Below are positions 13,672 to 42,132 of a stretch of DNA of 64,000 nucleotides, piece by piece; within the stretch, counting starts at the first letter, position 1; each line of letters opens with the position of its first letter. A program made the translations under genes and the position numbers. Source of the stretch: an uncultured Lachnospiraceae bacterium (GTDB lineage: Bacteria > Bacillota > Clostridia > Lachnospirales > Lachnospiraceae); NCBI GenBank assembly GCA_902779395.1, contig CACZBK010000011.1:1-64000 (forward strand), given 5' to 3'. Below the pieces are notes generated by a model. It ran no database searches and had not been told where the DNA came from. It saw only the letters and a list, made by a program, of their open reading frames with translations.

Positions 13672-13680
13672 TTTACCTGC

Positions 13681-14803: not shown

Positions 14804-14834
14804 GTTCCTTCCTTTCGCAGCTCATTCATAAGTA

Positions 14835-24114: not shown

Positions 24115-24168
24115 AAAAAAGGCTGTCTCATTAAATATACATCTCCGGTCTTCTGTCCCTGAACAGCC
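24115..24168 (-). terminator. Possible terminator of the polyamine operon
   Basis: On the minus strand GGCTGT (24163-24168), a loop of about 36 nt that includes the aguB stop, then ACAGCC (24121-24126) followed by TTTTTT (24115-24120). Stem and U-tract fit an intrinsic terminator but the loop is long. Confidence 0.4.
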
Positions 24169-24994
24169 CCCAGTCAAGACGCGCCTTATCAACAGCCTCA
24201 GGATCGGTCTGTGATATAAGGACCTCCTCCTTATCTCTTGAAGCCTGGGCAGTTACAGCTCCTGTTTCGTCAGTGATAAAAGAAGAGCCATAGAATACAA
24301 GTTCAGAACTCTGCCCGCCGTTTTCCGGGCAGGGTTCTGTTTTTTCACTTCCATAGCGGTTTGCTGCCACAACCGGCACTATATTTGCCGCAGCATGTCC
24401 CTGCATGGTCCTCTGCCAGTGAGGCATACTGTCCGTATCCAATACCGGTTCGGACCCTATCGCGGTAGGATACATGATAAGCTGAGCCCCTTTTAATGCC
24501 AGTGCCCTGGCAGTCTCGGGAAACCACTGATCCCAGCAGATACCTATCCCCAGCCTTATATACTTAGTATCAAATACCATAAACCCGGTATTCCCCGGCG
24601 TAAAATAAAATTTTTCCTGATAATAATGATCATCGGGAATATGCGTTTTGCGGTATACCCCCAGGATCTCTCCGTCCGCATCTATCACGGCACAGCTGTT
24701 ATACAGTACATTTATATCCTTTTCGTAAAAGCTTACGGGAATTACCACCTTCAGCTCCGCAGCAAGCTTTTTAAAATGTACCACCGCATCATTTTCCGAA
24801 ACAGGCCTGGCAAAATCATAATATTCATATCTGCGCTCCTGACAGAAGTACTGCCTTTCAAACAGTTCCGGAAGCAATACTACTTTTGCTCCGCCTTCGG
24901 CAGCTTCGCGAACCAGCTTATCAGCCTTATCTATATTCTCCTGTACCCCCGTACTGCAGCTCATCTGTACTGCAGCGATCTTTATCACACTCAT
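24131..24994 (-). CDS. aguB: N-carbamoylputrescine amidase
   Basis: A 287-residue nitrilase-superfamily enzyme hydrolysing N-carbamoylputrescine to putrescine, CO2 and ammonia. The Glu-Lys-Cys triad lies in VVLLPELFERQYFCQ, YRKTHIPDDHYYQEKFYFTP and GIGICWDQWFPETAR. The closeness to plant and Pseudomonas AguB (DHYYQEKFYFTPG) separates it from other nitrilases. The ATG at 24994 is preferred over a GTG at 25003 because GAGGTGA sits 5 nt before it. It is the last gene of the polyamine operon, 29 nt after aguA, whose product makes its substrate. Confidence 0.95.
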   Translation of the reverse strand: MSVIKIAAVQMSCSTGVQENIDKADKLVREAAEGGAKVVLLPELFERQYFCQERRYEYYDFARPVSENDAVVHFKKLAAELKVVIPVSFYEKDINVLYNSCAVIDADGEILGVYRKTHIPDDHYYQEKFYFTPGNTGFMVFDTKYIRLGIGICWDQWFPETARALALKGAQLIMYPTAIGSEPVLDTDSMPHWQRTMQGHAAANIVPVVAANRYGSEKTEPCPENGGQSSELVFYGSSFITDETGAVTAQASRDKEEVLISQTDPEAVDKARLDWGLFRDRRPEMYI

Positions 24995-25023
24995 TTCCGT
25001 CACCTCAAGCTCAGTTTTTTTAC

Positions 25024-26097
25024 TCAGGAAAGGATCCTGTCTGCCGGTATCTGCTGGGTAATACAGTGTATATTACCGCCTCCGACTATTATATCCCTTG
25101 CCATTACCGGAACTATCCTCCTGTCCGGGCACAGTTCTCTCATTACCGATACAGCCCTTTTATCGCTTTCCTCATTCTCTCCGCCAAATTGCGGCAGGAT
25201 AACGGATCTGTCAGTAAAATAGAAATTCACGTAGCTGGCTGCCAGTCTCTCACCGGCCTCGCGAACATCTTCACCTTCCTCAAAAACATACCCGCCCAGA
25301 TCATCTTCAGTTACACATACCGGCACATCAGGTATGGGCAGCTTATGAACTTTGATACCGTAACTCTTTAGTATCTCAAGATCCTTCAGTGAAAGCTCAT
25401 ACTGAGGGTCGTTCTTATCATCTGTCCAGGCCAGCACCACTTCCCCGGGCGCTGTGAATGCGCAGATATTATCAACATGTCCGTTAGTCTCGTCATTGTA
25501 TATGCCTTCGGGGAGCCAGATAAGCCTCTCACCGCCCAGATTTTCAAGCAGCGTTTTTTCTATCTCCTGCTTTGTCATCTGCGGGTTTCTTCCGGGGCTT
25601 AACAGACAGCATTCCGTAGTAAGCAGGTTTCCGGCCCCGTCGGAGTGTATAGATCCGCCTTCCAGTACAAAGCTCTGCATATCAATGCTTTCATAACCCA
25701 GCTTTTTACACAGTACCGATGCCAGAGCATTATCTTTATCCCACCCGGCATACAGGCCGTCATACTCCCCGCCCCAGGCATTGAACGCCCAGTCTATACC
25801 CTTAAGCTTATCTCCCTCATAAACGAAGGTAGGAGCTGTATCCCTCGCCCAGGCATCATCCGTTTCGATAACATAAAAAAACACATTGTCCGTTCCCGCC
25901 AGTAGCGCTTTGGCAGCACCCTCCGTACGGGGACTTACCACAACGTGCACTTCCTCATCCGTCGCGATTTCTTTTATTATACCGGCAAAAACTCTCTGTG
26001 CCTTTTTTGCTTTATACGGCCATGAACCTTCCCTTTCCGGAAAGATCATTATCGTTCCCCTGTGAGGTTCATACTCCGCAGGCATCCGGCGCATCAT
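25024..26097 (-). CDS. aguA: Agmatine deiminase
   Basis: A 357-residue guanidino-modifying enzyme that turns agmatine into N-carbamoylputrescine. Diagnostic residues are visible: MPAEYEPHRGTIMIFPER at the N-terminus, VIETDDAWARDTAPTFV, FNAWGGEYDGLYAGWDKDN, LEGGSIHSDGAGNLLTTECC, the His motif NDETNGHVDNICAF, and the catalytic Cys in GGGNIHCITQQIPA at the end. Start ATG at 26097 (a second ATG follows at once) overlaps the nspC stop by 4 nt and has GGGAGG upstream. Complete and of normal length. Confidence 0.97.
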   Translation of the reverse strand: MMRRMPAEYEPHRGTIMIFPEREGSWPYKAKKAQRVFAGIIKEIATDEEVHVVVSPRTEGAAKALLAGTDNVFFYVIETDDAWARDTAPTFVYEGDKLKGIDWAFNAWGGEYDGLYAGWDKDNALASVLCKKLGYESIDMQSFVLEGGSIHSDGAGNLLTTECCLLSPGRNPQMTKQEIEKTLLENLGGERLIWLPEGIYNDETNGHVDNICAFTAPGEVVLAWTDDKNDPQYELSLKDLEILKSYGIKVHKLPIPDVPVCVTEDDLGGYVFEEGEDVREAGERLAASYVNFYFTDRSVILPQFGGENEESDKRAVSVMRELCPDRRIVPVMARDIIVGGGNIHCITQQIPADRILS

Positions 26098-27218
26098 GAA
26101 AGCCTCCCTTTAAAATCATCATAGCCGAAGCGCTTTATCAGCTCATAAGCCCCGTCTGCATGCAAAAGGCCTATGTCCGGCAGCGGCATGCCGTTAAAGG
26201 TATTATTCTTGACCATTGAATATATGGCCATATCTTCAAATACCAGACGGTCTCCGGTATTTAACGCTTCATCGAAGCTGTAATCTCCTATTACATCTCC
26301 GGCCAGGCAGGTGCGCGACGCCAGACGGTATGTATGTGCTTTTTCCCCGCTCTTTCCCGCTCCCATAAGCGGCGGGCGGTAAGGCATCTCCAGCACATCC
26401 GGCATATGGCAGGCTGCCGATGCATCAAGTATCGCTATGTCCATACCGTTATGAACGATATCCATCACCTCGCAGACAAGATACCCGGAATTTAAAGCCA
26501 CGGCTTCGCCCGGCTCAAGATACACTTCCGTACCATATTTGGCCTTAAAATCCTTTATCAGCTTTATCAGCAGTTCCCTGTCATAATCATCCCTTGTGAT
26601 ATGATGACCGCCTCCGAAGTTGACCCACTTAAGAGACGCTAAATATCTGCCGAACTTTTCTTCAAAAGCTTTAAGCGTAAGCTCTAACGCATCCGCATTC
26701 TGCTCACAGAGAGTATGAAAATGCAGCCCGTCGATCACCTCAAGCACAGACTCATCAAAATCCTCTATGCGCACCCCCAGCCTTGAAAACGCGGCGCAGG
26801 GATCGTAGATCGCAGTATCCTGAGTCGAGCACTCGGGATTGACTCTTAATCCTATGCTTAAGTCCCTGCATTTATCTGCGTGCTTTTTAAGCTGGGCAAC
26901 GGAATTAAAAACTATATGATCGGCTATGTGTGCGATCTCAGCTATTTCTTCATCCTTAAATGCAGGCGCATATACATGCACTTCTTTCCCGAAGCATTCC
27001 CGCCCCAGCTTTGCTTCATACAGCCCGCTTGCAGTACTGCCGTCAAGCGTCTTTGACAGCAGCGGATATACGCAAAACATGGAGAAAGCTTTCTGGGCCA
27101 GCAGTATCCTGCAGCCGGCCCTTTCTTTCACTTCCTCCAATATCTTAAGATTCTTTATGAGTGCCGCCTCATCCACCACATAGGCCGGCGTTTTTATATT
27201 CTTAAATACTTCTGACAT
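26094..27218 (-). CDS. nspC: Carboxynorspermidine/carboxyspermidine decarboxylase
   Basis: A 374-residue PLP enzyme of the alanine-racemase/DapDC fold that removes the carboxyl group of carboxyspermidine to give spermidine (or carboxynorspermidine to norspermidine). The PLP lysine is in ILLAQKAFSMFCVYPLL; LDGSTASGLYEAKLGRE, LRVNPECSTQ, WVNFGGGHHITRDDYD and YLEPGEAVALNSGYLVCEVM are family marks. Its first base overlaps the last base of the CASDH gene, so it is coupled to the enzyme that makes its substrate. Symbol by homology; putrescine supply in this operon suggests spermidine as product. Confidence 0.95.
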   Translation of the reverse strand: MSEVFKNIKTPAYVVDEAALIKNLKILEEVKERAGCRILLAQKAFSMFCVYPLLSKTLDGSTASGLYEAKLGRECFGKEVHVYAPAFKDEEIAEIAHIADHIVFNSVAQLKKHADKCRDLSIGLRVNPECSTQDTAIYDPCAAFSRLGVRIEDFDESVLEVIDGLHFHTLCEQNADALELTLKAFEEKFGRYLASLKWVNFGGGHHITRDDYDRELLIKLIKDFKAKYGTEVYLEPGEAVALNSGYLVCEVMDIVHNGMDIAILDASAACHMPDVLEMPYRPPLMGAGKSGEKAHTYRLASRTCLAGDVIGDYSFDEALNTGDRLVFEDMAIYSMVKNNTFNGMPLPDIGLLHADGAYELIKRFGYDDFKGRLS

Positions 27219-28471
27219 CAGTCTACCGGTACGGGGTTTTCATCCACCACCCAGGGAAGGCCGTATCTGTTAAGAGCTTCCATATAAGGATCCGGATCAA
27301 ACTCTTCCACGTTGAATACGCCGGGGCCTTTCCAGGTCCCGCCCGCGATCATAGCAGTTCCTATCATTGCAGGCACGCCTGTGGTGTAGCTTACCGCCTG
27401 GGCACCTGTCTCCTTATAACTCTCCTGATGATCACATACATTATAGATATAGATTGTCTTTTCCTTTCCATCCTTTATTCCCTTAAAGATACAGCCTATG
27501 TTGGTCTTGCCGACTGTACGCGGACCTAAGGATGCAGGATCGGGAAGCAGGGCTTTAAGGAACTTGATAGGTACTATCTCATGCCCTTCAAATTCAACGG
27601 GGGTAGTTCCCAGCATTCCCACATTCTGCAGGCAGTTCATATGCATCAGATAGCTCTGTCCGAAGGTCATAAAGAAACGTATCCTCTTTATTCCCGGTAT
27701 ATTCTTAGCCAGTGACTCTATCTCTTCATGATGCAGCAGATACATATCCTTCTTTCCCACCTGGGCAAAGTCATACTCTCTCTTTATCTCCATGGGCTTA
27801 GTTTCTACCCAGTGGCCGTCTTCCCAGTACGATCCGTTAGCCGACACCTCACGCAGGTTTATCTCGGGATTAAAGTTGGTCGCAAACGGATAACCGTGGT
27901 CACCGCCGTTGCAGTCCAGGATATCTATATAGTTTATCTCATCAAAATAATGCTTAAGCGCATATGCGGAATAAACCTGGGTAACGCCCGGATCAAAGCC
28001 TGTTCCCAGTAGCGCGGTAAGCCCTGCTTTCTTAAACTTCTCATCATAAGCCCACTGCCAGCTGTAATCAAAGTATGCCGTAAACCCTTTCTCTTTGCAG
28101 CGCTTTTCGTATACAGCCCTCCACTGAGGATCATCGGTATCCTCGGCTTCATAGTTTGCGGTATCGACATAATTGGCACCGCATTCAAGGCAGGCATCCA
28201 TGATCACCAGATCCTGGTAAGGCAGCGCCACGTTAAGTACCGTATGGGGCTTAAACTCTTTCATTAGCGCACACAGGGATTCAAAACTGTCTGCATCCAC
28301 CGTAGCCGTGCTGAGCTTCGCATTTGTCTTATCTTTAAGCTTTGCCACCAGCGCATCACATTTCGACACAGTCCTGCTGGCTATGCATATCTCCGTAAAC
28401 ACGGGATTCTCGCAGCATTTATGGATCGCTACGGTAGCCACTCCTCCGCAGCCTATTACCAAAAGTTTCAT
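27218..28471 (-). CDS. Carboxyspermidine dehydrogenase (saccharopine dehydrogenase family)
   Basis: A 417-residue protein with an N-terminal Rossmann motif (LLVIGCGGVATVAIHKCCE) and the body of the saccharopine dehydrogenase/carboxynorspermidine synthase family (YVDTANYEAEDTDDPQW, TALLGTGFDPGVTQVYSAYA, DCNGGDHGYPFATNFNPEIN). Family members in this position condense putrescine with aspartate beta-semialdehyde, using NADPH, to give carboxyspermidine. Start ATG at 28471 follows GGAGGAAATAAGAT and overlaps the speE stop by 4 nt. Placement directly before nspC supports the role over lysine metabolism. Confidence 0.94.
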   Translation of the reverse strand: MKLLVIGCGGVATVAIHKCCENPVFTEICIASRTVSKCDALVAKLKDKTNAKLSTATVDADSFESLCALMKEFKPHTVLNVALPYQDLVIMDACLECGANYVDTANYEAEDTDDPQWRAVYEKRCKEKGFTAYFDYSWQWAYDEKFKKAGLTALLGTGFDPGVTQVYSAYALKHYFDEINYIDILDCNGGDHGYPFATNFNPEINLREVSANGSYWEDGHWVETKPMEIKREYDFAQVGKKDMYLLHHEEIESLAKNIPGIKRIRFFMTFGQSYLMHMNCLQNVGMLGTTPVEFEGHEIVPIKFLKALLPDPASLGPRTVGKTNIGCIFKGIKDGKEKTIYIYNVCDHQESYKETGAQAVSYTTGVPAMIGTAMIAGGTWKGPGVFNVEEFDPDPYMEALNRYGLPWVVDENPVPVD

Positions 28472-29346
28472 ATCTTATTTCCTCCTTTCATTCTGCCCTC
28501 TTCCTCCTCTAAAAGATCCTCAACATATTTGGGGAGCATGAAGGCGCCGGTATGAAGATTCGTTGTATAATACCAGGTTTCTATATTTCTGGCCTTCCAT
28601 CTTGCCGCATTCAGATCCTTAACCGGATGGTATTTCTTGCTGGCAAAGCCAAAAAGCCAGTAACCCGATGTGCTGGTAGGTATATGTGCCTGATACACGC
28701 GGCATATCGGGAAACTTCTGTATGCCTTTCTGTGCATGGCCCTGCAGGCTTCCTCGTCCTCATCGTAAAAAGGACTTCCGTGCTGGTATACCAGGATGCC
28801 GTCATCCTTAAGAGCCTTAAAGCAGGAGCCATAGAATTCCTTGGTAAACAGTCCCGCGGTATGCCCCAGCGGGTCCGTGGAATCACTGATTATCAGATCA
28901 TATTCGTTGCATTTCCCGCGCAGAAAACGCAGGCCGTCCCTGTAATGAAGCTGCACCCTTTTATCGTCAAAGCCGCAGGCCTGATCGGGAAAGTAATCAC
29001 GGCAGGTCTTTACAAACAGCTCATCCGCTTCCACCACATCTATCGATTCTATCTCATCATAATGCCCCAGCTCTCTGGCCACACCGCCGTCGCCGCCGCC
29101 TATGACCAGTACATTTTTTACATTGGGATGCACGGCCATTGGCACATGTACTATCATCTCATCATAGATAAACTCATCTTTATCGGAAAAGATAACGTTT
29201 CCGTCGGAAGTGAGGAAACGTCCGAATTCGATAGAGTCAAACACATCGATCCTCTGAAAATCACTGACAGCGGAAAACAGCTGCTTTTCCACCCTGATCG
29301 ACAGCTTGACATTATCCGTATGCATTTCGGAAAACCAGAAATTCAT
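28468..29346 (-). CDS. speE: Spermidine synthase-type aminopropyltransferase
   Basis: A 292-residue aminopropyltransferase with an N-terminal beta domain (NFWFSEMHTDNVKLSIRVEK) and a Rossmann catalytic domain. Motifs DEFIYDEMIVHVPM, VLVIGGGDGGVARELGHY, VDVVEADELF and ISDSTDPLGHTAGLFTKEFY are present; GPAE of many homologs reads GHTA here. SpeE moves an aminopropyl group from decarboxylated SAM to putrescine. No speD (SAM decarboxylase) occurs in this window, and the next two genes provide a different, SAM-independent way to spermidine. Start at 29346 has AGGAG upstream, 3 nt after the speA stop. Confidence 0.93.
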   Translation of the reverse strand: MNFWFSEMHTDNVKLSIRVEKQLFSAVSDFQRIDVFDSIEFGRFLTSDGNVIFSDKDEFIYDEMIVHVPMAVHPNVKNVLVIGGGDGGVARELGHYDEIESIDVVEADELFVKTCRDYFPDQACGFDDKRVQLHYRDGLRFLRGKCNEYDLIISDSTDPLGHTAGLFTKEFYGSCFKALKDDGILVYQHGSPFYDEDEEACRAMHRKAYRSFPICRVYQAHIPTSTSGYWLFGFASKKYHPVKDLNAARWKARNIETWYYTTNLHTGAFMLPKYVEDLLEEEEGRMKGGNKI

Positions 29347-29349
29347 TTC

Positions 29350-30801
29350 CTACTCCTTTATCACATTAAGCTTCTCAAGCTCACCGTCTTCGGGTCCCTG
29401 CATCGAGCAGCCTTTTTCCTTGGAATACAAAGTATAATCGATTATCTCTTTGGTGATCATCTCACCCGGCGCTAAGATCGGTATCCCGGGAGGATAACAC
29501 ATGACAAATTCCCCGCAGATGCGTCCCACAGTCTCCCTTATGGGTATCTGTTCCTTTTCCGCATAAAACGCACGCTGGGGTGTAGTGGCCACGATAGGCG
29601 TGATGTATTCGGCGTTATGCATGGTGGAAACCGGCTTTGACCAAAGCCTCTTTATATCCTCCAGCGCTCCCACCAGCCTTTCTATCTCCTGTATCCTGTC
29701 ACCGATGGAGATATAGGCCAGGATATTTCCTATATCGCCGAATTCTATCTGTATATCATATTCGTCACGCAGAAGGTCATACACCTCTATACCGGTCAGT
29801 CCGATATCACGCGTGTATACCGAAAGCTTAGTGACGTCGTAATCATAGATACTGCTGTTATTTACCAGTTCCTTACCGTAAGCATAATAGCCTCCGATGG
29901 AATTGATCTCGCTTCTTGCATATTCTGCAAGATTCTTCACCTTCTCAAAAGATTCATTGCCGCGCAGTGCCAGATTCCTTCGGGATATATCAAGGCTCGA
30001 AAGCAGCAGATAGCTTGCGGAAGTAGTCTGCGTAAGATTGATTATCTGCTCTACATAGCGGCTGTTCACATTGGGCCCCAGCAACAGAATGGAGCTCTGC
30101 GTCAGGCTTCCTCCGGATTTATGCATGGAAACGGCAGCCATATCCGCTCCGGTCTCCATTGCCGATACCGGGAGCGAATCATTAAAATATAGATGAGTAC
30201 CGTGCGCCTCATCCACAAGTGCGAGCATATTATGTTCATGCGCCAGCTTTACTATTGAACGCAGATCCGAGCAGATGCCGTAATAGGTAGGATTGTTTAC
30301 AAATACCGCTGTAGCATCTGGATGCTCTTTGATCGCACGTTCAACCTGTTCGAGCTCCATGCCCAGAGCTATACCTATATGATTATCCACCTCGGGATTA
30401 ACATACACCGGTTCTGCTCCGCAGAGTACCAGCGCATTAATAACGCTTTTATGCACATTACGCGGAAGGATGATCTTATCCCCGGCCTTGCAGGCGCTCA
30501 GCACCATACTCTGCACCGCGGAAGTGGTCCCGCCCACCATAAAATAAGCCTGCGCCGCGCCAAAAGCTTCTGCCGCCAGCTTCTCAGCCTCATATATTAC
30601 CGATACAGGATGACACAGGTTATCAAGGGGTTTCATTGAATTGACATCCAGACTGACACACTTCTCACCTAAAAGTGTTACCAGCTCCGGATTACCTCTT
30701 CCTCTCTTATGTCCCGGCACATCAAAGGGTACCACCCTCTGTTTCCTGAACCGTTCCAGCGCCTCATAAAGCGGCGCCGATCTCTGCTTTTCCATATCCA
30801 T
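29350..30801 (-). CDS. speA: Arginine (Orn/Lys/Arg) decarboxylase
   Basis: A 483-residue fold-type I PLP decarboxylase, of the short form found in Bacillus SpeA. Key stretches are VPFDVPGHKRGRGNPE, the substrate-binding MVGGTTSAVQSMVLSACKAG, LVDEAHGTHLYF and the PLP lysine in VSMHKSGGSLTQSS. Presence of aguA and aguB in the same operon argues that it makes agmatine from arginine rather than cadaverine from lysine. Start at 30801, with a second ATG at 30795; GAGG lies about 10 nt upstream of the first. It leads the operon and has a TATAAT box (30846-30851) about 45 nt upstream. Confidence 0.93.
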   Translation of the reverse strand: MDMEKQRSAPLYEALERFRKQRVVPFDVPGHKRGRGNPELVTLLGEKCVSLDVNSMKPLDNLCHPVSVIYEAEKLAAEAFGAAQAYFMVGGTTSAVQSMVLSACKAGDKIILPRNVHKSVINALVLCGAEPVYVNPEVDNHIGIALGMELEQVERAIKEHPDATAVFVNNPTYYGICSDLRSIVKLAHEHNMLALVDEAHGTHLYFNDSLPVSAMETGADMAAVSMHKSGGSLTQSSILLLGPNVNSRYVEQIINLTQTTSASYLLLSSLDISRRNLALRGNESFEKVKNLAEYARSEINSIGGYYAYGKELVNNSSIYDYDVTKLSVYTRDIGLTGIEVYDLLRDEYDIQIEFGDIGNILAYISIGDRIQEIERLVGALEDIKRLWSKPVSTMHNAEYITPIVATTPQRAFYAEKEQIPIRETVGRICGEFVMCYPPGIPILAPGEMITKEIIDYTLYSKEKGCSMQGPEDGELEKLNVIKE

Positions 30802-31953: not shown

Positions 31954-34900
31954 TCAATCCTCTTTTTCCTTATACATCTTCCACAACAGCTTAACCGAAG
32001 TGGTCGGATCAAGCCTTAGCAGCATATCTTTCCTCTTCTTTTTCAGGACACCGCCCATTATACAAAGAAAGCTATCAGGCTCCTCATCGCTTACTTCGAT
32101 CTTTTCTTTATTATCGGCATTTTCATCTATACCGGCCTCAATTTCCTTGAAAGTCTGTATCTGTCCCAGCCACAGAAGATCCAGCACCTTTTCATACTGC
32201 TTCGTAAGGGCCTCCATATTGTTATTCAGGCTTTCTTCATTTTTGGTTGCTTCCTGCCAGAGCTTTTTAAGCTCTGCCCCTTCTTTTTTAAGTTCCTCAC
32301 CGTTGAGTTTATTATCCGCACAGCTCAGGATCATATTCTCAATTATATCAAGCTGATTCGCCCTGCTCATAAGAAGCTGTTGCTGCGCATCCCTCCTGTC
32401 ATCTTTCTTGATCTCCGGAAGGAATGACAGCAGATCCTGCTTCCACTCATCCTTATCCTTTTCAAACTCCTTCTGTTTTTGCGGCACGATATCTTTCAGA
32501 TACTGTTGATAAAGCGCATCCTCCATGGTTTGCAGGTCATCAGGTAAAACTGTTCCTCCATCAACAGCATCATAATACTCTCTCAGTTTCCGGTCCGCTT
32601 CCTTCGATTCTGCAACAAGTTCAGCGTTTTCGCATTCCGGATGGGCTTTCTTTATTCTCTCCTTCAACTCATTCAGGGATTTGGGAACTCCTCCTTTAAG
32701 GACCGGGTCCGTGGCTAAGGTAAGATTCCTACTAGCATCGTCATAATCAGGTAAATTTACGAAGATTGTTTCCAACGCATCTAAAATATATTTTACAAGG
32801 TCACTCCTCGCCGCGTTATCTTTATTTGCTTCCTTGATGGCATCAAGCTCATTAAATGCATCATCAGGGAAACCCTCCAGTTCGGCTTTTTCAAGATTAC
32901 GCTTACCACTCAGCAGATCATCGATCTTCTTAAGTTCTTCCTCAAGCAAATCCTCTTGTGCTACAGGTCTGAAGCCAAGATTGTCCGTTACAAAAGCGCG
33001 GTATCTTTTATCTCTGATCAGTTCCTTAAAAAATTCCTCGGACGGACATTCCCTTTCGACAAGATACCTTCGCGCCTCCTGTTTTCTGTAATAGGCGGAT
33101 CTTTTCCTGTACTCAGTCTTGTATTTTGCCACCGGATCTTTTTTAACATATTTCTCTGTGCAGGCAAACTCTCCGCTAAGCTGGCTCACATTATTGCGAA
33201 GCGCCAATAATGTGTTATTCATATTGTCTAATGTATTCTGCATACGCATCTGGCATGAGGAAAAGTTTGCTATGGTAGGCGGCAGCTCAAGTCCCAGCTC
33301 CTGCGCCCTTATAAGTGCAGCCGCAATACGTTCGGCAGGTTTCTTTTCATCACCCATGCTCATTATTTCCTTGAAAAGAAGGGTCAGCTCCTCCCTTTTT
33401 TCCTGATAAACCTCTTCCGGTGTATTCTCCAAAAGCTGATGAAAGCCGTGTCTGAACCTCTCTACATCCCCCATGGTAGCCGCTATCATCATCTTAGTGA
33501 TATGCTTCTGCTGCTGCGAAGTAAGCATGGTAGCATTACCGAAGTCGATCACGGTAACTCCCTTATTGCTGATCATGATATTTCCGGCATGCAGATCTCC
33601 ATGATAATATCCCTTTTCAAACACTCCCTGGGTCACCCATTTTTCCGCCAGTTGTGCTAAAGCGCGGGTACGTAATTCTGCATCCTTAAGCATTTCTCCC
33701 AGTTCTTTTTGAACCTGTTCCAGCTTCTCAAGCTGATCAGGTTTTAGATTCGTTTTTAAAACATAGGATCCATCCTTATTCTTTTTAGGGATCTTTTTTC
33801 CGGTTTCATTCCCGTTCTTATCCTTTTCATTTTCCTGTATGCAGAACTCCCCCAAAAGTTCCTGCATTTTTTCTTCTATCCCGTTCATGTATCTCTTTAC
33901 AGTCTGCTTTCCGGCTATTTCCATCATGCAGGTATCCGTGGTAGGCGACACTATATCGGAAAGTTTCATTGAATCACAAAGATTTTCCTTTCCCTCAAGC
34001 GCTTTGTCATATATCTGTCCTTCCTTGCAGTTTTGCGCCTCTATGGTCAGATCCAGTTCTTCTTCGATCCTCTGGAGATTACCGAGATAAGTGGCTTCCA
34101 TACCGCCTTTCTGGCCTTTTCTTCGCATTTCCTCCACTTCGTTTCTGGTCTTGCCTTCCGCATCCGTCATTCTGGCGGCCTCGAGCATCACGTCTTTTTC
34201 ACGCATCATGCGGTTACGGACATCGGGACGCAGCAGCTTTATAACCACATCCTTCTTGCCTTCTTTCATTTTGGGCCCGTAGATAGTACACAAAAAAGCC
34301 TGTCCCACAGATGCCGCACCCAGGGATTTCTTTACCTCAATTTTAGTTATCTGTTTATTACTGCGTTTTTTGATAGCATCCAGATGCGCCATCACCACTT
34401 CATCGGGTATTGATGCTAACGAATCCTGCGTATCTTCAACGGCTTTTTTCAATCCGTCGGGAAGACCGGACTTGGGAAGTCCCTGGAGCATTTTCTGAAA
34501 CAGCGGCCCGGCTCCTTTGAACATTCCGCCAAGGAACCCGCTCATTGCGGAAAGCTTTTGCTCTTTTGACAGATTTTCCCTCTCCTCTTCGGTCATAGAC
34601 GGCACAGGATCTGAATTTCTGAAGGCACTGGCCAGCATCGATCTTTTATCAAGAACAGGCACGCTCTTAAAATAAGTTTTAAACACATTTTTCATAAACA
34701 GGGACTGACCCTTTTCTCCGCCCTTAGCCGCATTTTCAATGATCTTATCCAGTTCCTTTGCTGAATCTTTGGGCATCGCATTCTCAAAATCTTTTAAACT
34801 TCGTTCATTCGTTCGGATTTCGTTCCTATACCTTCCTATCAGGACTCGTAAGTCACCTATTTCATTATCGTATGCAGCGATTTCTCCGTCAGACATAACT

Positions 34901-37881
34901 CTGCCTCTGTCATTTGCCGATTTTATCTCTTCGTTTTTCTCCTTTTCGAGCTTCTTTATTTTTTCCTCTGCTTTTTCTATATCACATTCGTTTTTCATTA
35001 TCTCTTCGCGTAATATTTCTTCACCCTCTTTACGCTTGTACATACGCCTGTTGATCTCTCTGATATTGATCCTTTTACTGTATGCATTTATCGTTTTGGT
35101 TACTTCATCAAAATTCCCGGCAAGATTCCTGTTAAGCTCATCCACAGCCTCCTGCAGATTATTGATCTCATCGTTATATTTCCTGATAAGAAGCCGGTTC
35201 TCCTCTGTCTGACCCTCTTTGTTTTTAGCGCTCTCCTCTAAGAGCTCATCTACGGCTTTCTTGCGTTGGTCTATTTCCCTATGCATGGCTGCTATAGTTT
35301 CCTGCATCGCTTTCGCTTCGCTTCTCTTTTCATCAAGTATCTTACGGTCAGCTTTATCCGCTAAAGCTGCATCCCGCTTACTCTGAAGCCTCTTTTTTCT
35401 GGCCCTCTCGAACCTATTAAGTTTAAGGTTCTCCTCATTCTCCTCATTATCCTTATTTTCGTCCTCTTCTACAGCCCCTTTCCGTTTATTCTCAAGCCTC
35501 TTGTTTCTGGCCGCCTCAAATTTATTCTCCTTTTCGACCAGCTCTTCATACTGTTCATTTTCTAATTCATCAAGTCCGTCTGTCAGTTCCGGTTCATATA
35601 CCGCACCGGCGTCATCCTTACTGAACATTTCGTCAACACAGTCATCAAAAGTATTCTGGACCTCCTGCATATTCTGCTCAACAGCCTCGTCTATAGCGCT
35701 GTCAATACCCTTCATCTTCTTCAACAGCTCTTTATCCGGGTTTTCAAGCAGCTTCTTTATGTGAGGAAGCAGTCCAAACTTTGTAAGTATGCCTTTTTTA
35801 ACAATATTCTTCATGCCCCCCAGTTTTTTACTTTCCAGTTCCTCCTCTACCTTCTCATTGACCATATCCCGGACTTTACCCAGCGCATCTTTCACACTGT
35901 TTTTCAGCTCCCGGAGCTGCTCGGCCCCCATCTCGGCCAAAGGCAATTTATCGATCATCCTTTCGATGATCCCGTCCGGCTGTGCTATCCTGTCCCTGAA
36001 CTGATCGGCTACTATCAATGCAACTGCTTCTACGTTCTCAAGCAGCAGATGCCTGATACGTTCTTCCGGCTTCTTGACCAATCCGTCTGCTACCCAGGTA
36101 TCCCTTGAAAAGATCAGATCAGCAGCCAGGTCACGTACTTTTCTCTCATTCTCGTCCCAAAGGCTCTTATCCTGCTGTTTTTCCAAATTAAGGATAATGC
36201 CTTCGGCCTGTTTAAAGCCGACTCTCTGCAATTCCAGATTAACGACCGTATTTATCTGATCTTCTTTCTTTTCCGTATTTTTATTTTCAGCCTGCTTTTG
36301 GATCTTCTGCTCAAAGCGCTTAAATTCATTATTATCATCTTTTAGCGCTAATGCCTCAAGCGCCAGATCTTTCAGTTCACCGCAGGTGAAATTATTAAGC
36401 AATGTCTTTGGTATACCGGTCAGCTGAAACAACACGGTTACGGCATACTCTCTGGTATTCTGAAGATCTCCCCTGGTCATCTTCGAAAGATCTGTCTTTG
36501 TGACCTCTATGATATTCCTTACAGCTTCATCACCGTATATCTTCCAGTTTGTGATAACATCAGAAGCTATAACATCCCTGACTTCGGATGCGGTATTTCT
36601 AAAAGAGATAGACTCTCCATTATGTTTCAGGCTTAAGTTTCCGTATCTGTCCTGGCTAAAGCAGACAAACTCACCACCTACCCTTATGGTCTTAGCTTCT
36701 TCCGAACCTGTTTTAAACCTTTTAAGCGCATCAAAGATCTTTAACATTTCGGACAGCATTTTCTTTTCTGCTGTTTTCAGCTTATTTTTATTGACAATTA
36801 ACGATGTGGGTTCAACCCCTTCAGCCACAGATCTTATAAGCCGCTCAAGATCCGGGGGTAAATTATTTATCTTTTTGTCCGAATCCACAAGACTTTCATT
36901 AAAGGCCTTATCTGCTTCTGTCTTCTTCTTCGTCTCCGCTGCTGTTTTTATCTCCTGATCTGTTGTGAGCTGTTTTATTTTTTTATCCAGTTCATCGATC
37001 TCTGCCTTCTTTTCAGACAGCTTAAGCTGTGCTTTCAGATCCTTTAGCTGCTCATCTTCATCTTCATTAAAAGACCATTTAGCCGCAAAGCTCAGTTTTT
37101 TTGTCTTCTTTTCGAGGAGTGAATCATATTCCGCTTTGCTCTTATCATATTGTGGTTTAAGGAGCTCATAGCTGGCTGTCAGCTCCTTTTTTTCATCAAC
37201 AACCCTTTTATCCTCCATCCGATCGGCAAGCCGCTGCGCCGCTGCCAGTGTCAGAAGATCCATGCCTTTCTTAACCTCTTTAGCTTCGCTGCCTTTTTCA
37301 GCAAGTATCCTGCGTCCCAGTTCTATGCCATCAACTTCTATCATAAGACGTTTAAGCGTAGCCTGAACCATTTTCTTTCTTTCCTTTCCCGTCTCACTTT
37401 TGGGATGCTTGGCATTGATATATTTCTGACATTCATCCATAGCCTTATGATATAAATCGATAATGTACTTTGCATCCTTTGAGTTATAGCCATCTATTTC
37501 AAGCATCATCCGGGCCTCAAGATTTGACAATGCATCCTTTACACGTGTCATCTCCTCACTGTCACCGGTAAATTTATGCGCGTTGAGCATAATATGAGAC
37601 AAATTACGCCCGTTAATAGCCTCCAGTTTTGCCTTTTCTTTTTCGCTTACCTTAAAATCACCGGCATTTATTGCACTAAGCAGACCATCGATCCTTAATC
37701 TATCCTCCTGGGTTTGTCTCACACTGTATAATCGCGCGTCATAATTCTGCTTGAACTTTTTCATATCTACAGCGGTCCTGACCTGGCCTGCAAATATCTC
37801 CTTCATATTCATCTCATCGATCTTCTGATTCAGAGATTGGATAGTCACTTTATTCTTTTCAAAAATCTCCATATTATCCAT
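31954..37881 (-). CDS. Giant coiled-coil protein with embedded ADCK/UbiB-type kinase core
   Basis: A 1975-residue protein without signal peptide or membrane segments. A kinase-like core near residues 1120-1500 shows the ADCK/UbiB order: GAGPLFQKMLQG (in place of KxGQ), the Ala-rich loop LGAASVGQAF (about 1190), the lysine VVIKLLRPDV (about 1212), IEEELDLTIEAQN, the catalytic HGDLHAGNIMI (about 1427) and metal-binding VIDFGNATML (about 1445). UbiB family proteins of about 550 residues act as atypical ATPases/kinases in quinone or lipid biology. Here the core is flanked by 1100 residues of charged helical sequence before it and 475 after it, with an internal duplication at about 785-840 (KFEAARNKRLENKR / RFERARKKRLQSKR). 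ATG at 37881 follows GGAGGGTAAAATA. No close relative is known to me; function not assigned. Confidence 0.85.
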   Translation of the reverse strand: MDNMEIFEKNKVTIQSLNQKIDEMNMKEIFAGQVRTAVDMKKFKQNYDARLYSVRQTQEDRLRIDGLLSAINAGDFKVSEKEKAKLEAINGRNLSHIMLNAHKFTGDSEEMTRVKDALSNLEARMMLEIDGYNSKDAKYIIDLYHKAMDECQKYINAKHPKSETGKERKKMVQATLKRLMIEVDGIELGRRILAEKGSEAKEVKKGMDLLTLAAAQRLADRMEDKRVVDEKKELTASYELLKPQYDKSKAEYDSLLEKKTKKLSFAAKWSFNEDEDEQLKDLKAQLKLSEKKAEIDELDKKIKQLTTDQEIKTAAETKKKTEADKAFNESLVDSDKKINNLPPDLERLIRSVAEGVEPTSLIVNKNKLKTAEKKMLSEMLKIFDALKRFKTGSEEAKTIRVGGEFVCFSQDRYGNLSLKHNGESISFRNTASEVRDVIASDVITNWKIYGDEAVRNIIEVTKTDLSKMTRGDLQNTREYAVTVLFQLTGIPKTLLNNFTCGELKDLALEALALKDDNNEFKRFEQKIQKQAENKNTEKKEDQINTVVNLELQRVGFKQAEGIILNLEKQQDKSLWDENERKVRDLAADLIFSRDTWVADGLVKKPEERIRHLLLENVEAVALIVADQFRDRIAQPDGIIERMIDKLPLAEMGAEQLRELKNSVKDALGKVRDMVNEKVEEELESKKLGGMKNIVKKGILTKFGLLPHIKKLLENPDKELLKKMKGIDSAIDEAVEQNMQEVQNTFDDCVDEMFSKDDAGAVYEPELTDGLDELENEQYEELVEKENKFEAARNKRLENKRKGAVEEDENKDNEENEENLKLNRFERARKKRLQSKRDAALADKADRKILDEKRSEAKAMQETIAAMHREIDQRKKAVDELLEESAKNKEGQTEENRLLIRKYNDEINNLQEAVDELNRNLAGNFDEVTKTINAYSKRINIREINRRMYKRKEGEEILREEIMKNECDIEKAEEKIKKLEKEKNEEIKSANDRGRVMSDGEIAAYDNEIGDLRVLIGRYRNEIRTNERSLKDFENAMPKDSAKELDKIIENAAKGGEKGQSLFMKNVFKTYFKSVPVLDKRSMLASAFRNSDPVPSMTEEERENLSKEQKLSAMSGFLGGMFKGAGPLFQKMLQGLPKSGLPDGLKKAVEDTQDSLASIPDEVVMAHLDAIKKRSNKQITKIEVKKSLGAASVGQAFLCTIYGPKMKEGKKDVVIKLLRPDVRNRMMREKDVMLEAARMTDAEGKTRNEVEEMRRKGQKGGMEATYLGNLQRIEEELDLTIEAQNCKEGQIYDKALEGKENLCDSMKLSDIVSPTTDTCMMEIAGKQTVKRYMNGIEEKMQELLGEFCIQENEKDKNGNETGKKIPKKNKDGSYVLKTNLKPDQLEKLEQVQKELGEMLKDAELRTRALAQLAEKWVTQGVFEKGYYHGDLHAGNIMISNKGVTVIDFGNATMLTSQQQKHITKMMIAATMGDVERFRHGFHQLLENTPEEVYQEKREELTLLFKEIMSMGDEKKPAERIAAALIRAQELGLELPPTIANFSSCQMRMQNTLDNMNNTLLALRNNVSQLSGEFACTEKYVKKDPVAKYKTEYRKRSAYYRKQEARRYLVERECPSEEFFKELIRDKRYRAFVTDNLGFRPVAQEDLLEEELKKIDDLLSGKRNLEKAELEGFPDDAFNELDAIKEANKDNAARSDLVKYILDALETIFVNLPDYDDASRNLTLATDPVLKGGVPKSLNELKERIKKAHPECENAELVAESKEADRKLREYYDAVDGGTVLPDDLQTMEDALYQQYLKDIVPQKQKEFEKDKDEWKQDLLSFLPEIKKDDRRDAQQQLLMSRANQLDIIENMILSCADNKLNGEELKKEGAELKKLWQEATKNEESLNNNMEALTKQYEKVLDLLWLGQIQTFKEIEAGIDENADNKEKIEVSDEEPDSFLCIMGGVLKKKRKDMLLRLDPTTSVKLLWKMYKEKED

Positions 37882-38544: not shown

Positions 38545-39636
38545 TCAGTTCTTCTTATTATTTCCGGGAAACAGACTTTCAAAGAATGCCTGCTTCGTAA
38601 ATTCATGAAGTACACGTTTAGTCACTTCACTCGCATTTTTCAATCTGTTCTGTATCCTTACAAAGCCATCGATCCCTTCTCCCACAAGGTCTGCCAGCGT
38701 CTTTGCTCCGCCCTCGCTCACAGCTGCAAACACCTCGTCAAAGAATATCCTGCGCTCCTCGACATTGGTGCATGCTATCCACCTTGCAAAGAAATCATTG
38801 AACCAAACACTGAAGGGATTATGTTTCTCTGCCACGGCGATCTTGCCGTGATCCACGCCCCAGGAAATGGGAGCATGCTGAAACGCCCCTTTGGCAAAGG
38901 ATCTGATTATCTTTGTATCCGGGATATCCATATCAAACACCCTGCCTACCACAGAAAACTCCGGAAGGATGCGCGTCGTCTTTTCCAATACATATTTCTT
39001 AGGCGCTTCACCCATAACTTCCGCGGAAAGCCCCGGCCCGTCCAGATCATATATCCGCTCAACATGATCAAACAGTTCTTTATCCATGGTACAGCCCGCA
39101 TATAGCGCCAGATTGCCGCCCTTCGAATGGCCGCCCATCAGCCAGCGCCGATCCGGCTCCTTTGATATCACGCGCGTGGCATACTCCCTCGCCATCTCCT
39201 GAGCCTCTGTTTTTGAAAAGCTGGCTATAAAATCCTCATACCATCCTGCCAGTGAATCATCCGTTCCCCTGAAGGCGATAAATGCCAGATCCTCTTCATC
39301 ATAAAAAGTTACAACGGCGTACTGAACCGGCGGCTCCTGACTTATCACGTCGATATAGTCTCTCATTAGCAGATCCCCAAACCTCTTAGATCCCACTGCC
39401 GCCTGCAAAAGTTGCGTATATTTATCATCGCTTATGGCTATCTTAAGCTCTGCCTTTCCTGAATCTAAGATCTTACGGCAATCCCGCACATGTACGGGTG
39501 CGGTATCATCTTCAAACACCTTTCCCATAACGATATAGCTTAAATTGCTTAAGACCATTGCATCAACATCTCCGAAAGGCAGCGCTGAAAAAGGGATGTC
39601 GCTCATCCATAATACATAATCTACCAGGTTGTCCAT
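38545..39636 (-). CDS. DUF2974 (Mbeg1-like) alpha/beta hydrolase
   Basis: A 363-residue protein of the lipase-like DUF2974 family. The N-terminal MDNLVDYVLWMSDIPFSALP is typical; AFRGTDDSLAGWYEDFIASF gives the oxyanion region; the nucleophile elbow is WLMGGHSKGGNLALYAG (Ser in GHSKG). A conserved SWGVDHGKIAVAEKHNP region follows near residue 260. Substrates of the family are not settled. The start at the ATG at 39636 is set by GGAGAG 6 nt upstream; a longer frame to 39669 has no such signal. No signal peptide, so it is probably cytosolic. Confidence 0.9.
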   Translation of the reverse strand: MDNLVDYVLWMSDIPFSALPFGDVDAMVLSNLSYIVMGKVFEDDTAPVHVRDCRKILDSGKAELKIAISDDKYTQLLQAAVGSKRFGDLLMRDYIDVISQEPPVQYAVVTFYDEEDLAFIAFRGTDDSLAGWYEDFIASFSKTEAQEMAREYATRVISKEPDRRWLMGGHSKGGNLALYAGCTMDKELFDHVERIYDLDGPGLSAEVMGEAPKKYVLEKTTRILPEFSVVGRVFDMDIPDTKIIRSFAKGAFQHAPISWGVDHGKIAVAEKHNPFSVWFNDFFARWIACTNVEERRIFFDEVFAAVSEGGAKTLADLVGEGIDGFVRIQNRLKNASEVTKRVLHEFTKQAFFESLFPGNNKKN

Positions 39637-39705
39637 TTTATTCTCTCCATTCATATTTCTACGGCACAATTAAGGGTAATATATCCCGGAACGCATATAA
39701 ACATA

Positions 39706-42132
39706 TCAACGCGTCTCTATGTAGTCTATCACTTTCTCCAGTTCCACATCCGCTCCGTCTTCTTTAAAGAGCTCTATAACTTCTTCCCTGCTGAAGCTAA
39801 GCTTTAGGTCCGGCAGGAATCTGGCTTTACGGTCGGCGCGTCCGTCAACGAGCGGCAGGCCGTCAAGATCAGCCGCAAGAATTGAAGGATAACCCAGTCT
39901 GAAATCTCCATCCGTCAGATAGATCGTACCCCCTACGGCCTGCGCACTGCCCCAGCTTGATGCCATTCCCGTAAGTACAGCGCCACACTCCCTTTGCAGG
40001 CCATGGGCTGCTATATCACCGCAGCTGGCCGTCTCTCCGTTGATCATACATACCAGTGGAAGATCCTTCCAGTCGCCGCGGCCGTATACCGCCGGTTCAT
40101 AGTAGCTATGATATTCCCCGTCCTTATATTTTCCACATCCTCCGGGCTGCTCTTTATCCGTAAAGAGACCTATCACAGAGCGGGTAAACACCTGCAGCCC
40201 ACCGTCATTTCCGCGAAGATCTATGATCAGACAGTCCATTCCCTGACTCCTAAGATCCTCCAGTTTATGATCCAGTTCATTATACAGTCTTTCCGAATAT
40301 CCGTCGACAGTGTCCGCGACCATTGCCGCAGTCGAATCTCTTTCATATTGGGATTTTGTGAACCTCATATATCCGATGTGTTCATTTAACATACGCGTCC
40401 CGTAATTTTCTGCTTCCTGTGTTTCTTTTTCACTGTATATACGATCGATCGCTTCATCCAGCCTTACGCGGTAGCTGCCCATCTTATCCAATGATACCGT
40501 ATGTTCCGCACCATTATCATCCAGGAACGAAACCTGCACAGTATCACCGCCCCTGCCTGCTAAAAATACAGGCTTAAAAAGTTCTTCGCTTTCTAAATAT
40601 GCAAACGATCTGTTGTATATGCATTTGATCCCTGCCGCTGCCTCCGAAACCGCGATCCCATCCCATTTGGTGATAACGGTACCGTCTGTGATACCGTCTC
40701 CGTATGCTTCACTTTCTTCATCAACCATTACTGCAAGAAAGCGCCCCTCTTCATCCTTAAACATGGCAAAGCCGTAATCATTTCCTGCCAGACGATCCAG
40801 AGCTTCCGTATAGACTTCGTAATCCTTTGCCTCGGCCCAGACATGTCCGTCTGCAAGCTCATATTTCAGTTCAAAGAGCGCAACGAGCATATCTGCCTTA
40901 TCACCATTTTGCTGTGCCATCTGCACTTTAGGCAGATATCTTACCTTCAGTTCTTCAAAATCGATCTCTTTCCAGTCTCTTGATACATAGTTTTCCGAAA
41001 GATCATCAAGCATTTTAACAAAGCTGACCTCCCAGTCATTATGAGTATAATTACCGATATAGATCTTATAGTAATTTGTATAGAGATATATGCCGTTTAG
41101 TGTAAGCGCAACTAATACGCTCCCCAACAGATACACCGTAGTTAATTTTAAATGCCCGCTGAGCCCGGCAACGATCCCCCATATGATGATCAATAAAGCG
41201 ATGACTCCAAACACTATATGACGCTGATTCGTGCAATCATCGTTTCCGATCACATAGTTTCCGCAGATATATACAGCCGAAACGATCATCGGAAGCAAAC
41301 ATAATAGCATCCATAATTTCATATGCTTCTTTTTTAGCAGATGATGCAGGATCATCAATGCCACTATAGATAACAGTAAAAAGAGCAGCATAAAACGATA
41401 CGGCTTTTCCGTAAAAGAATAATCTATTATCAGTAATCGCACTGCCTCATATAATCTGGCAAAGGTAAATTTCCCCAGATCATCCTCATATCTGATCCAC
41501 AGACCTGCTATCGCGATCGGAATGAGCGCCGTTATCATCAGCGCAGATGTCGATGCACTGAACTTAAGCCTTAGCAGCATGAAGAGCAGTATCACCCCGC
41601 TGGCGCCAAGTAAAACTGCGCCGGCGATCATAAACGGCTTTGCAGCATTTTGCGGATAGATCCGGATGCCGTGTTTTAATGATGCCTTAAGTTCATCCTC
41701 TACGGCGATTGAAGCTCCCGGATTATGTTCCAAAAGAATACTGCTGTACTTATTTGCTATAGGAAAGATTATCTCCTTTTCTTCTTCCGAAAGATCATAG
41801 ATACGCGCGGAAAACTCATAATACTCCACTCCCTCATCATTATAGAGTTTTTTCTCGGCGCCTACAGAAAAATTCTTGACTGCAAAGCATTCATAGGTAT
41901 TATGATCTTCATCCATGAGTACACCGAAATGAAGCCCCTTATCCAGCTCTTTACTGCCTGCGATGAAATCATACCCCAGTGTTACTTTATCCCCGGATCT
42001 AAAAGAAGAATAATTATTATGATCCATAAGCGGCCCATCAGTCATTGCATTCTTTCCTGCCACAAAGCCGATGATAAGACAGATGATCCCCAGAATGATA
42101 ACGATCGAAACACACAAGAATCTCTTTTTCAT
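39706..42132 (-). CDS. Polytopic membrane protein with C-terminal S41 peptidase domain
   Basis: An 808-residue protein. A membrane anchor (about 7-27) is followed by an extracytoplasmic domain of about 130 residues, then six or so helices between about 165 and 355. The C-terminal half has the S41 (C-terminal processing peptidase) pattern: a PDZ-like middle part (VITKWDGIAVSEAAAGI), LIIDLRGNDGGLQVFTR (about 636) and the nucleophile region MINGETASCGDIAAHGL (Ser about 707), then GTIYLTDGDFRLGYPS. S41 enzymes usually have a single anchor; a seven-helix N-terminal module is unusual. Start ATG at 42132 has GGGGGG upstream. It is divergent from the LytTR gene, with a 183-nt gap that probably holds both promoters. 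Confidence 0.85.
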   Translation of the reverse strand: MKKRFLCVSIVIILGIICLIIGFVAGKNAMTDGPLMDHNNYSSFRSGDKVTLGYDFIAGSKELDKGLHFGVLMDEDHNTYECFAVKNFSVGAEKKLYNDEGVEYYEFSARIYDLSEEEKEIIFPIANKYSSILLEHNPGASIAVEDELKASLKHGIRIYPQNAAKPFMIAGAVLLGASGVILLFMLLRLKFSASTSALMITALIPIAIAGLWIRYEDDLGKFTFARLYEAVRLLIIDYSFTEKPYRFMLLFLLLSIVALMILHHLLKKKHMKLWMLLCLLPMIVSAVYICGNYVIGNDDCTNQRHIVFGVIALLIIIWGIVAGLSGHLKLTTVYLLGSVLVALTLNGIYLYTNYYKIYIGNYTHNDWEVSFVKMLDDLSENYVSRDWKEIDFEELKVRYLPKVQMAQQNGDKADMLVALFELKYELADGHVWAEAKDYEVYTEALDRLAGNDYGFAMFKDEEGRFLAVMVDEESEAYGDGITDGTVITKWDGIAVSEAAAGIKCIYNRSFAYLESEELFKPVFLAGRGGDTVQVSFLDDNGAEHTVSLDKMGSYRVRLDEAIDRIYSEKETQEAENYGTRMLNEHIGYMRFTKSQYERDSTAAMVADTVDGYSERLYNELDHKLEDLRSQGMDCLIIDLRGNDGGLQVFTRSVIGLFTDKEQPGGCGKYKDGEYHSYYEPAVYGRGDWKDLPLVCMINGETASCGDIAAHGLQRECGAVLTGMASSWGSAQAVGGTIYLTDGDFRLGYPSILAADLDGLPLVDGRADRKARFLPDLKLSFSREEVIELFKEDGADVELEKVIDYIETR

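Follow-up and report, generated by a model that had tools for sequence, protein, structure and literature searches.

A giant ABC1-type protein is encoded on contig 11

The DNA analyzed here, referred to throughout as the window, is a stretch of 64,000 nucleotides (positions 1 to 64,000 of contig CACZBK010000011.1, hereafter contig 11; assembly GCA_902779395.1) from an uncultured Lachnospiraceae bacterium, whose genome (G000) amounts to 3.58 Mb in 56 contigs. On its minus strand, from position 37881 to 31954, lies an open reading frame (ORF) of 1975 codons that starts with ATG, contains zero internal stops, and has a Shine-Dalgarno-like GGAGGG upstream of the ATG; the plus-strand reading of the same interval has many stops. 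A preliminary description, made from the sequence alone, had proposed that this frame encodes a long, soluble coiled-coil protein with an ADCK/UbiB kinase core in its middle. The frame is real and intact, and its product, called the giant below, contains an N-terminal module A, a module C, the kinase-like core, and a conserved C-terminal tail F; a gene encoding a GNAT-fold partner follows it (Table 1).

TABLE 1 Features of the giant and its partner gene (positions in the window)
Feature	Position	Strand	Basis
Giant ABC1-core protein	31954..37881	minus	ORF and translation; Pfam ABC1 PF03109, E = 9.7e-17
Module A, residues 31-215, helical N-terminal	37237..37791	minus	Iterated profile; genome searches
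Module C, residues 365-699	35785..36789	minus	81/91 members; model
ABC1/UbiB kinase-like core, residues 1033-1593	33103..34785	minus	Core profile 91/91 by construction; COQ8A top fold match
KxGQ-equivalent QKMLQG, residues 1129-1134	34480..34497	minus	Alignment of members' cores; hhalign to clostridial UbiB KIGQ
Ala-rich loop LGAASVGQ, residues 1187-1194	34300..34323	minus	Core alignment
beta3 lysine K1215	34237..34239	minus	Invariant in core alignment
ExD and alphaC glutamate EELDLTIEA, residues 1274-1282	34036..34062	minus	E1275 and E1281 invariant
Catalytic loop HGDLHAGN, residues 1427-1434	33580..33603	minus	H, D, H, G, and N invariant, 89/89 rows
Metal-binding IDFGN, residues 1445-1449 (DFG 1446-1448)	33535..33549	minus	D, G, and N invariant, 89/89 rows
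Conserved C-terminal tail F, residues 1853-1964	31990..32325	minus	80/91 members
Partner gene, 334 residues	30946..31950	minus	Pfam Acetyltransf_1; adjacency statistics; junction

Profile searches, named in the preliminary description as the check on its ADCK/UbiB assignment, matched the core (Pfam, TIGR01982, and PDB structures), and the motifs listed there occur in the order given. Pfam ABC1 scored 61.4 bits against a gathering cut-off of 22.9, and the UbiB model TIGR01982 gave an E value of 2e-21 and 76.1 bits; because this score lies under the equivalog cut-off of 487.55, we place the core in the ABC1 superfamily and not in UbiB proper. A single-sequence search of the PDB with the giant produced no match at E ≤ 1, and a sequence-profile search returned weak relatives only, the best being Rv3197 (8.9e-05), followed by MSMEG_1954 (0.0016), with COQ8A not among the matches at E ≤ 0.01. 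Apart from this core, nothing in the giant was matched by Pfam, NCBIfam, PHROGs, PADLOC, or PDB sequence search. A predicted model of residues 1030-1975 is mainly helical, with a mean predicted local distance difference test score (pLDDT) of 91.0, and its eight best Foldseek matches in the PDB are all ABC1 proteins, i.e., COQ8A, mycobacterial MSMEG_1954, and Rv3197. For this predicted model, entry 7udp gave an E value of 6.8e-08 and a template modeling score normalized to the target of 0.58, and entry 5i35 a score of 0.61, with the root mean square deviation over the full alignments being high (8.6-12.4 for the eight ABC1 matches; 8.6-9.8 for the COQ8A entries). Altogether, the identity of the core as ABC1/UbiB is firm.

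The PADLOC signal in the core consists of weak matches to PD-T4-6 (0.001 and 0.0037) confined to the kinase motifs, and might be taken as a sign that the giant uses its kinase fold in defense or abortive infection. These matches look generic for kinase folds, and a Pfam scan of five neighbors (PADLOC was run on the giant only) showed nothing defense-like; we therefore find this explanation scarcely credible.

We examined the motifs in a core alignment of 92 rows, in which counts cover the rows with letters at a given position (91 or 89). The K and Q of KxGQ, the beta3 lysine, the ExD glutamate, and the alphaC glutamate are invariant in 91 rows. As had been noticed, KxGQ reads KMLQ in the giant (residues 1130-1133), and its glycine is replaced in all 91 rows (L in 61, M in 26, I in 2, V in 1, and F in 1), so that the form throughout the family is Kx[L/M/I/V/F]QG; hhalign aligned the QKMLQG helix with the KIGQ of an ordinary clostridial UbiB, from genome G041, at a probability of 98.8. 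The Ala-rich loop reads GAAS in nearly all members, with G at the first and A at the third position in 91/91, while variants elsewhere in the core are N for the ExD aspartate (4 rows) and DYG for DFG (11 rows). According to PMC4718504, the active site of ADCK3 takes in the KxGQ and ExD elements, autophosphorylation becomes possible once an alanine of its Ala-rich loop is changed to glycine, and Ala339 has a role in that loop. By our own reading of the motif, the third alanine of the giants' loop would be the equivalent of Ala339, and since it is kept in 91/91 rows, COQ8-like behavior would be expected of the core, i.e., ATPase before protein kinase activity. The core is probably nucleotide-binding.

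Ordinary ABC1/ADCK proteins have about 500-600 residues, and a membrane helix is usual for UbiB. The giant was said to be soluble and three to four times the usual length, and this held: it has 1975 residues, its maximum Kyte-Doolittle value over 19 residues is 0.95, so that no 19-residue segment qualifies as a membrane helix, and 0/91 members reach 1.6. What stands of the coiled-coil description is that the protein is mainly helical, over the residues covered by the models (1-720 and 1030-1975).

The giants form a family, mainly in Lachnospiraceae, with a fixed module order

When 84,980 species genomes were scanned using 18 aligned cores as the query, 268 pattern stretches emerged, 207 of them encoding a relative; the best 80 of the 207 were kept (76 loci), and the addition of loci from other genomes brought the collection to 106 giant ORFs, 91 of which are distinct, the window's included. 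Eighty-two of the 106 are closed, with 755-2740 residues (median, 1844), the shortest being perhaps truncated. Judged by the titles of the 76 loci, the hosts are Lachnospiraceae (60), Butyrivibrio (7), Eubacterium (3), Clostridiales (2), or simply "bacterium" (3), and ruminant gut samples are named in many titles. The remaining locus (L115, short giant of 1143 residues), recorded outside Lachnospiraceae, comes from a metagenome-assembled genome named Candidatus Anaerobiospirillum merdipullorum and would reflect a misbinned contig or a transfer. Giants are rare in a sample of the class, with a match at E ≤ 1e-30 in 2/391 genomes, one being the window's own; they occur in 10/397 genomes of a family sample, spread over 9 genera, and in 7/35 genomes of the genus, with one to seven divergent copies per carrier, some in tandem. 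The window's own genome has two further giant genes, of 2111 and 2653 residues.

The modules were located across the 91 members by iterated profiles made from segments of the window protein. Module A was found in 68 members, and A, C, core, and F are all present in 60; the order A - C - core - F is broken in none, and among those in which a module is missing are ORFs truncated at contig ends. Segments 236-380, 700-1030, and 1590-1800 were detected in only 9, 31, and 6 members, respectively. An assembly fusion, raised in the preliminary description as a possible source of the frame, is ruled out because of the two additional giants in the same genome and the 91 distinct members, of which 60 have the complete module set and none departs from the order. 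Nor does the giant look like a phage or plasmid gene: tblastn gave zero matches in 50,697 phage and 72,556 plasmid records, and a viral contig set gave three weak partial matches. Altogether, the architecture, which had been called unfamiliar, is real and conserved, and the same layout was not found described in the literature searched.

The closest relative of the window protein, from genome G020, shares 54% identity over residues 1-1806 and ends near a contig edge, with a match to residues 1816-1969 sitting on another contig (contigs 91 and 75). In genome G028 (contig 50; L037:5810-10437), a tandem giant is split into two frames, of 612 and 930 residues, and neighboring giants are intact.

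The true ABC1 fold and motifs raise the question of whether the giant, for all its extra domains, has an ordinary UbiB-type housekeeping function in which it acts on quinones or isoprenoid lipids. Against this stand the missing membrane segment, a score far under the UbiB equivalog cut-off, and the patchy, multicopy distribution in the genus. In addition, when 40 genomes (24 of the genus and 16 of the order) were searched with PF03109, an ordinary match over the full length (positions 1-241 of 244, 247 bits) came from G041 alone, a genome of another family, and neither the window's genome nor any of the 23 genus-mates gave one; the giant is thus not a replacement of a genus-common gene. Outside the giants, the window's genome gave three partial PF03109 matches, in frames of 776, 357, and 641 residues, whose length and coverage point to other kinase folds. 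We consider the housekeeping explanation highly improbable.

Module A and the GNAT-fold partner also accompany other enzymes

The model of residues 1-720 is mainly helical (mean pLDDT, 86.6), with module A forming a confidently folded bundle and module C being helical with a small four-stranded sheet. Foldseek found no match to this N-terminal half at E ≤ 0.001 in the PDB or viral models; weaker viral matches include helical tail and tape-measure proteins, to which we gave no weight.

The iterated module A profile also matched 20 ORFs without a kinase core. When a profile of 47 module A copies was run on six genomes, four gave matches, in giants and in other large proteins, and the two without a match (G002 and G027) are also without giants. 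The C-terminal part of one module A protein is an ADP-ribosyltransferase exoenzyme domain (PF03496, 5.6e-32), and that of another is a calpain-type protease (PF00648, 5.7e-13); for six further proteins of this Pfam scan, and for two on contig 9 of the window's genome, no match below 0.01 was obtained. By eye, a 558-residue module A protein on contig 9 of the window's genome shows a lipase-like GHSRGG, and L156, L158, and L162 (L157 more loosely) have in common a kinase-like signature, DRxxxN ... GIDND, that had no Pfam match and is possibly that of a second kinase-fold payload family.

The partner gene of the window starts 3 bases after the stop of the giant. Its product has a GNAT domain (PF00583, 7.8e-05; 23.4 bits against a cut-off of 20.7) and, as judged by eye, a second GNAT-like region. 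We defined the partner type as the single-linkage BLAST cluster (cluster 0) that contains it. Genes of this type lie within four ORFs of 67/91 members, always on the same strand, and directly adjoin 59 of the 90 members with a readable neighbor: they occupy the following position in 49/85, with a median gap of 16 bases, and the preceding one in 22/75, compared to a background of 7/232 at distances of 5-8 ORFs. A profile of the window's partner found 131 ORFs in giant loci. Five giant-free genomes of the genus carry the tube gene introduced below (G031, G026, G003, G009, and G001), and in each of the first four, which were the ones examined, a partner-type gene also adjoins the module A gene. 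No such gene was present in the short stretch examined around the module A gene of the tube-less genome G014 or in the stretches examined for L155, L156, L158, L159, and L162. Because the same partner type stands beside some module A proteins with other payloads, a payload-specific immunity role for it is unlikely.

Giants and module A co-occur with an extracellular contractile injection system

In genome G028, a gene for the core domain of extracellular contractile injection systems (eCIS), DUF4157 (PF13699, 3.4e-17), lies two genes from a module A protein; according to PMC8213781 and PMC11297309, this domain is a known marker, located beside or at the front of many eCIS toxins. The finding led to the prediction that giants and module A track eCIS, which we then tested with the tube gene (PF06841) as the genome marker.

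The tube gene is present in 12/35 genomes of the genus compared to 0/14 control genomes, and specifically in 7/7 genus genomes with giants versus 5/28 without (Fisher's exact test, 1.2e-4); with genomes restricted to those of ≥90% completeness and ≤5% contamination, the numbers are 7/7 versus 3/16 (4.9e-4). In the family sample of 397 genomes, tube was found in 42, i.e., in 8/10 with giants versus 34/387 without (3.2e-7). Module A, present at E ≤ 0.001 in 15/35 genus genomes, follows the same pattern, with 12/12 tube-bearing versus 3/23 tube-less genomes, and among the giant-free ones 5/5 versus 3/23 (P = 5.7e-4). A sheath match was obtained in five of the six genomes behind named loci, including the apparently cultured giant carriers Butyrivibrio sp. 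FCS014 and Lachnospiraceae bacterium XBB2008, both of which have eCIS loci.

In the window's genome, the eCIS locus is on contig 17, where Pfam confirmed sheath, tube, Pvc16_N, gp25, and DUF4280 and left three more proteins of this stretch unmatched. In each of the six remaining genus genomes with giants, homologs of the contig 17 tube and Pvc16 lie in one stretch, with a sheath ORF called in five of them; in the sixth, G030, the ORF filter chose an overlapping ORF on the opposite strand. In the genome of L054, a single contig has, all on the same strand, a partner gene, an unassigned gene, the giant (9132-15149), a second partner gene (15130-16155), and then homologs of the contig 17 eCIS genes, among them Pvc16, DUF4280, sheath (70% identity), tube (84%), and, as the last, gp25 at 41861; in this one relative, giant and partner head an eCIS operon in an operon-like linkage. 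Looser linkages were seen on one contig of G028, which has two DUF4157 (eCIS_core PF13699) genes at 8.8-15.9 kb, a module A protein at 18.4-21.2 kb, homologs of gp25, tube, sheath, DUF4280, and Pvc16 at 30.3-43.9 kb, and four core-bearing giant ORFs at 55.8-74.6 kb, and in G145 and G741, where giant and tube share a contig about 50 kb apart. L077 and L099 contain homologs of genes from the far end of contig 17, whose membership in the eCIS is putative; the other giant loci compared with the contig 17 proteins gave no match in the available DNA. Altogether, apart from the one operon-like join and the three looser contig linkages, the association of giants with eCIS is strong but correlative.

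The giant as a candidate eCIS cargo

From module A, the GNAT partner, and the co-occurrence with eCIS, we conclude that the giant is rather likely a delivered cargo of the eCIS, with a COQ8-like, probably nucleotide-binding core, rather than a quinone-biosynthesis enzyme or a free-standing scaffolded kinase. The preliminary description had suggested a scaffolded atypical kinase or ATPase; its view of the core fold and motifs stands, and what it missed is the family, the loss of the KxGQ glycine throughout that family, module A, the GNAT partner, and the eCIS link.

Several observations weigh against a cargo role. The window's giant is not beside the eCIS operon, being on contig 11 whereas the only tube match of the genome is on contig 17; among the giant loci compared with the contig 17 proteins, within the available DNA, a clear join exists only in L054; and a Pfam scan of the giant and five neighboring ORFs detected no DUF4157/eCIS_core. 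Two giant-bearing genomes, G599 (99% complete) and G761 (97%), gave no tube (E ≤ 1e-10) or sheath (E ≤ 1e-5) match, and that of L115 gave no sheath match. Conversely, module A was found in the tube-less genomes G014 (contig 24, 3.9e-8), G010 (contig 117, 2.4e-4), and G022 (contig 8, 3.2e-4), which would represent decayed systems, other carriers, or chance. The Fisher tests treat related genomes as independent, a weakness that is real for the genus test and smaller for the family sample, with its 10 giant genomes in 9 genera. The known signal peptides in Photorhabdus comprise 50-70 N-terminal residues that are disordered (PMC11495950), whereas module A is folded. Finally, although the first 35 residues of 75 closed members have a median hydropathy of -1.05 versus -0.06 in 372 control ORFs, whole giants are also more hydrophilic than controls (-0.64 versus -0.21), and the corresponding segment of the window protein shows no more than moderate hydrophilicity (-0.64), so that the family trend is weak here. 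Signaling genes (SpoIIE, STAS, and GGDEF) also neighbor some giants, as described below.

The place of the giant ahead of the eCIS genes in L054, the conserved core and tail, and an N-terminus that is folded rather than disordered would also fit a large protein that uses ATP for loading, unfolding, or assembly, remains in the producer, and works with the GNAT-fold partner. We think this unlikely: module A is common to effector-type enzymes, giant-bearing genomes of the genus carry divergent and partly tandem copies, and giants are absent from 5/12 tube-bearing genus genomes, so that the machine does not need them.

For the favored reading, that of a delivered cargo, we infer loading, delivery, the role of the partner, the chemical activity, and the target cell as follows. 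The N-terminal end, i.e., module A and the residues before it, would mark the giant for loading, and the GNAT-fold partner encoded alongside would help loading whatever enzyme follows module A. By comparison, payloads of the Photorhabdus eCIS are loaded via N-terminal packaging regions, aided by the Pvc15 ATPase, according to PMC10097599 and PMC11495950. The assembled phage-tail-like particle would then carry the giant into a target cell, where the COQ8-like core may bind a Mg-adenine nucleotide and act as an ATPase or a kinase-fold phosphotransferase, with the Kx[L/M]QG helix holding the core in check and modules C and F positioning it. At some loci, SpoIIE, STAS, HATPase_c_2, or GGDEF genes may regulate production.

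Comparison with known systems

The giants resemble ABC1/ADCK/UbiB proteins such as COQ8A/ADCK3, Rv3197, and MSMEG_1954 in fold, beta3 lysine, ExD, alphaC glutamate, HxDLHxGN, and DFG, as well as in the retained K and Q of KxGQ. They differ in length, in the absence of a membrane helix, in modules A, C, and F, in the substituted KxGQ glycine, and in the glycine at the first position of the Ala-rich loop. With the eCIS-associated toxins (EATs) and payloads of PVC/Afp-type systems, they have in common the co-occurrence with eCIS, the operon-like linkage in one relative, several copies per genome, and a common N-terminal part that carries varied enzymes, but they are set apart from these by the absence of DUF4157 in cis, by the folding of the N-terminal module, and by having a GNAT-fold partner and an ABC1 payload. 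According to PMC11297309, 88% of EATs are encoded within about ten genes of an eCIS operon, a proximity that the giant of L054 has and that of the window does not. A count of the term "ABC1" gave 0 for the main texts of both PMC11297309 and PMC8213781. Type VI secretion systems employ effector adaptors and chaperones, e.g., Tap/DUF4123 and Eag. The arrangement here is similar in that a small partner gene stands beside effectors with varied catalytic ends, and different in that the partner has a GNAT fold, its adaptor role being putative.

ABC1/UbiB atypical kinases are otherwise known from quinone and isoprenoid metabolism. Among the matches listed in our literature search (preprints outside its scope), titles, abstract beginnings, and term counts gave no link between ABC1/UbiB and contractile injection. 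We hold it to be evenly balanced whether a branch of ABC1/UbiB has been recruited as an eCIS payload in gut and rumen Lachnospiraceae, with module A, a header not recognized before, and a GNAT adaptor serving as a modular loading system for unrelated enzymes. If this is true, ABC1/UbiB proteins would move from lipid and quinone biology into cell-to-cell delivery. The giants would then be a naturally occurring series of soluble ABC1 proteins whose catalytic motifs are intact and whose regulatory KxGQ is rebuilt identically each time, allowing a direct test of the control of this helix over ATPase or kinase output, and module A with its GNAT partner would be a sequence handle for listing eCIS cargo in these bacteria. 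Candidate targets of the eCIS are ciliates, fungi, other bacteria, or the animal; PMC8213781 reports eCIS as depleted from human-associated sites.

Other neighbors of the giants

Among 129 putative-operon neighbors scanned, out of 202 of at most 1000 residues, SpoIIE was found in 9, GGDEF in 5, STAS in 4, and HATPase_c_2 in 2. In G007, four of the seven SpoIIE genes are on giant-bearing contigs, within about 8 kb of a giant. Such neighbors would suit a cytosolic regulatory hub, in which the atypical kinase fold works in a partner-switching or cyclic di-GMP circuit. We judge this quite unlikely, given that none of the three SpoIIE genes in the window's genome is on a giant-bearing contig, that the presence of giants follows eCIS, that effector-type enzymes carry the same module A, and that signaling circuits may simply control the eCIS. 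Partner switching may control some of the giants' cassettes. STAS-type genes lie within four ORFs of 7/91 members; they were noted in the giant loci L031, L046, L057, L060, L065, L075, L076, L096, L097, L100, and L101, with SpoIIE genes also near the giant in L031.

Rfam and tRNA scans of the window were empty. Upstream of the giant, on the same strand, are a gene for an Mbeg1-like hydrolase (PF11187, 5.5e-55; 38545-39669) and one for an S41 peptidase with a Tricorn C1 domain (39706-42132), preceded by a region that by eye looks membrane spanning. Positions 24131-30801 of the minus strand hold a run of polyamine-type genes, including one for an Orn/Lys/Arg decarboxylase (PF01276, 1e-69), after which come, by eye, genes resembling those for spermidine synthase, carboxynorspermidine dehydrogenase, a pyridoxal phosphate-dependent decarboxylase, agmatine deiminase, and N-carbamoylputrescine amidase.

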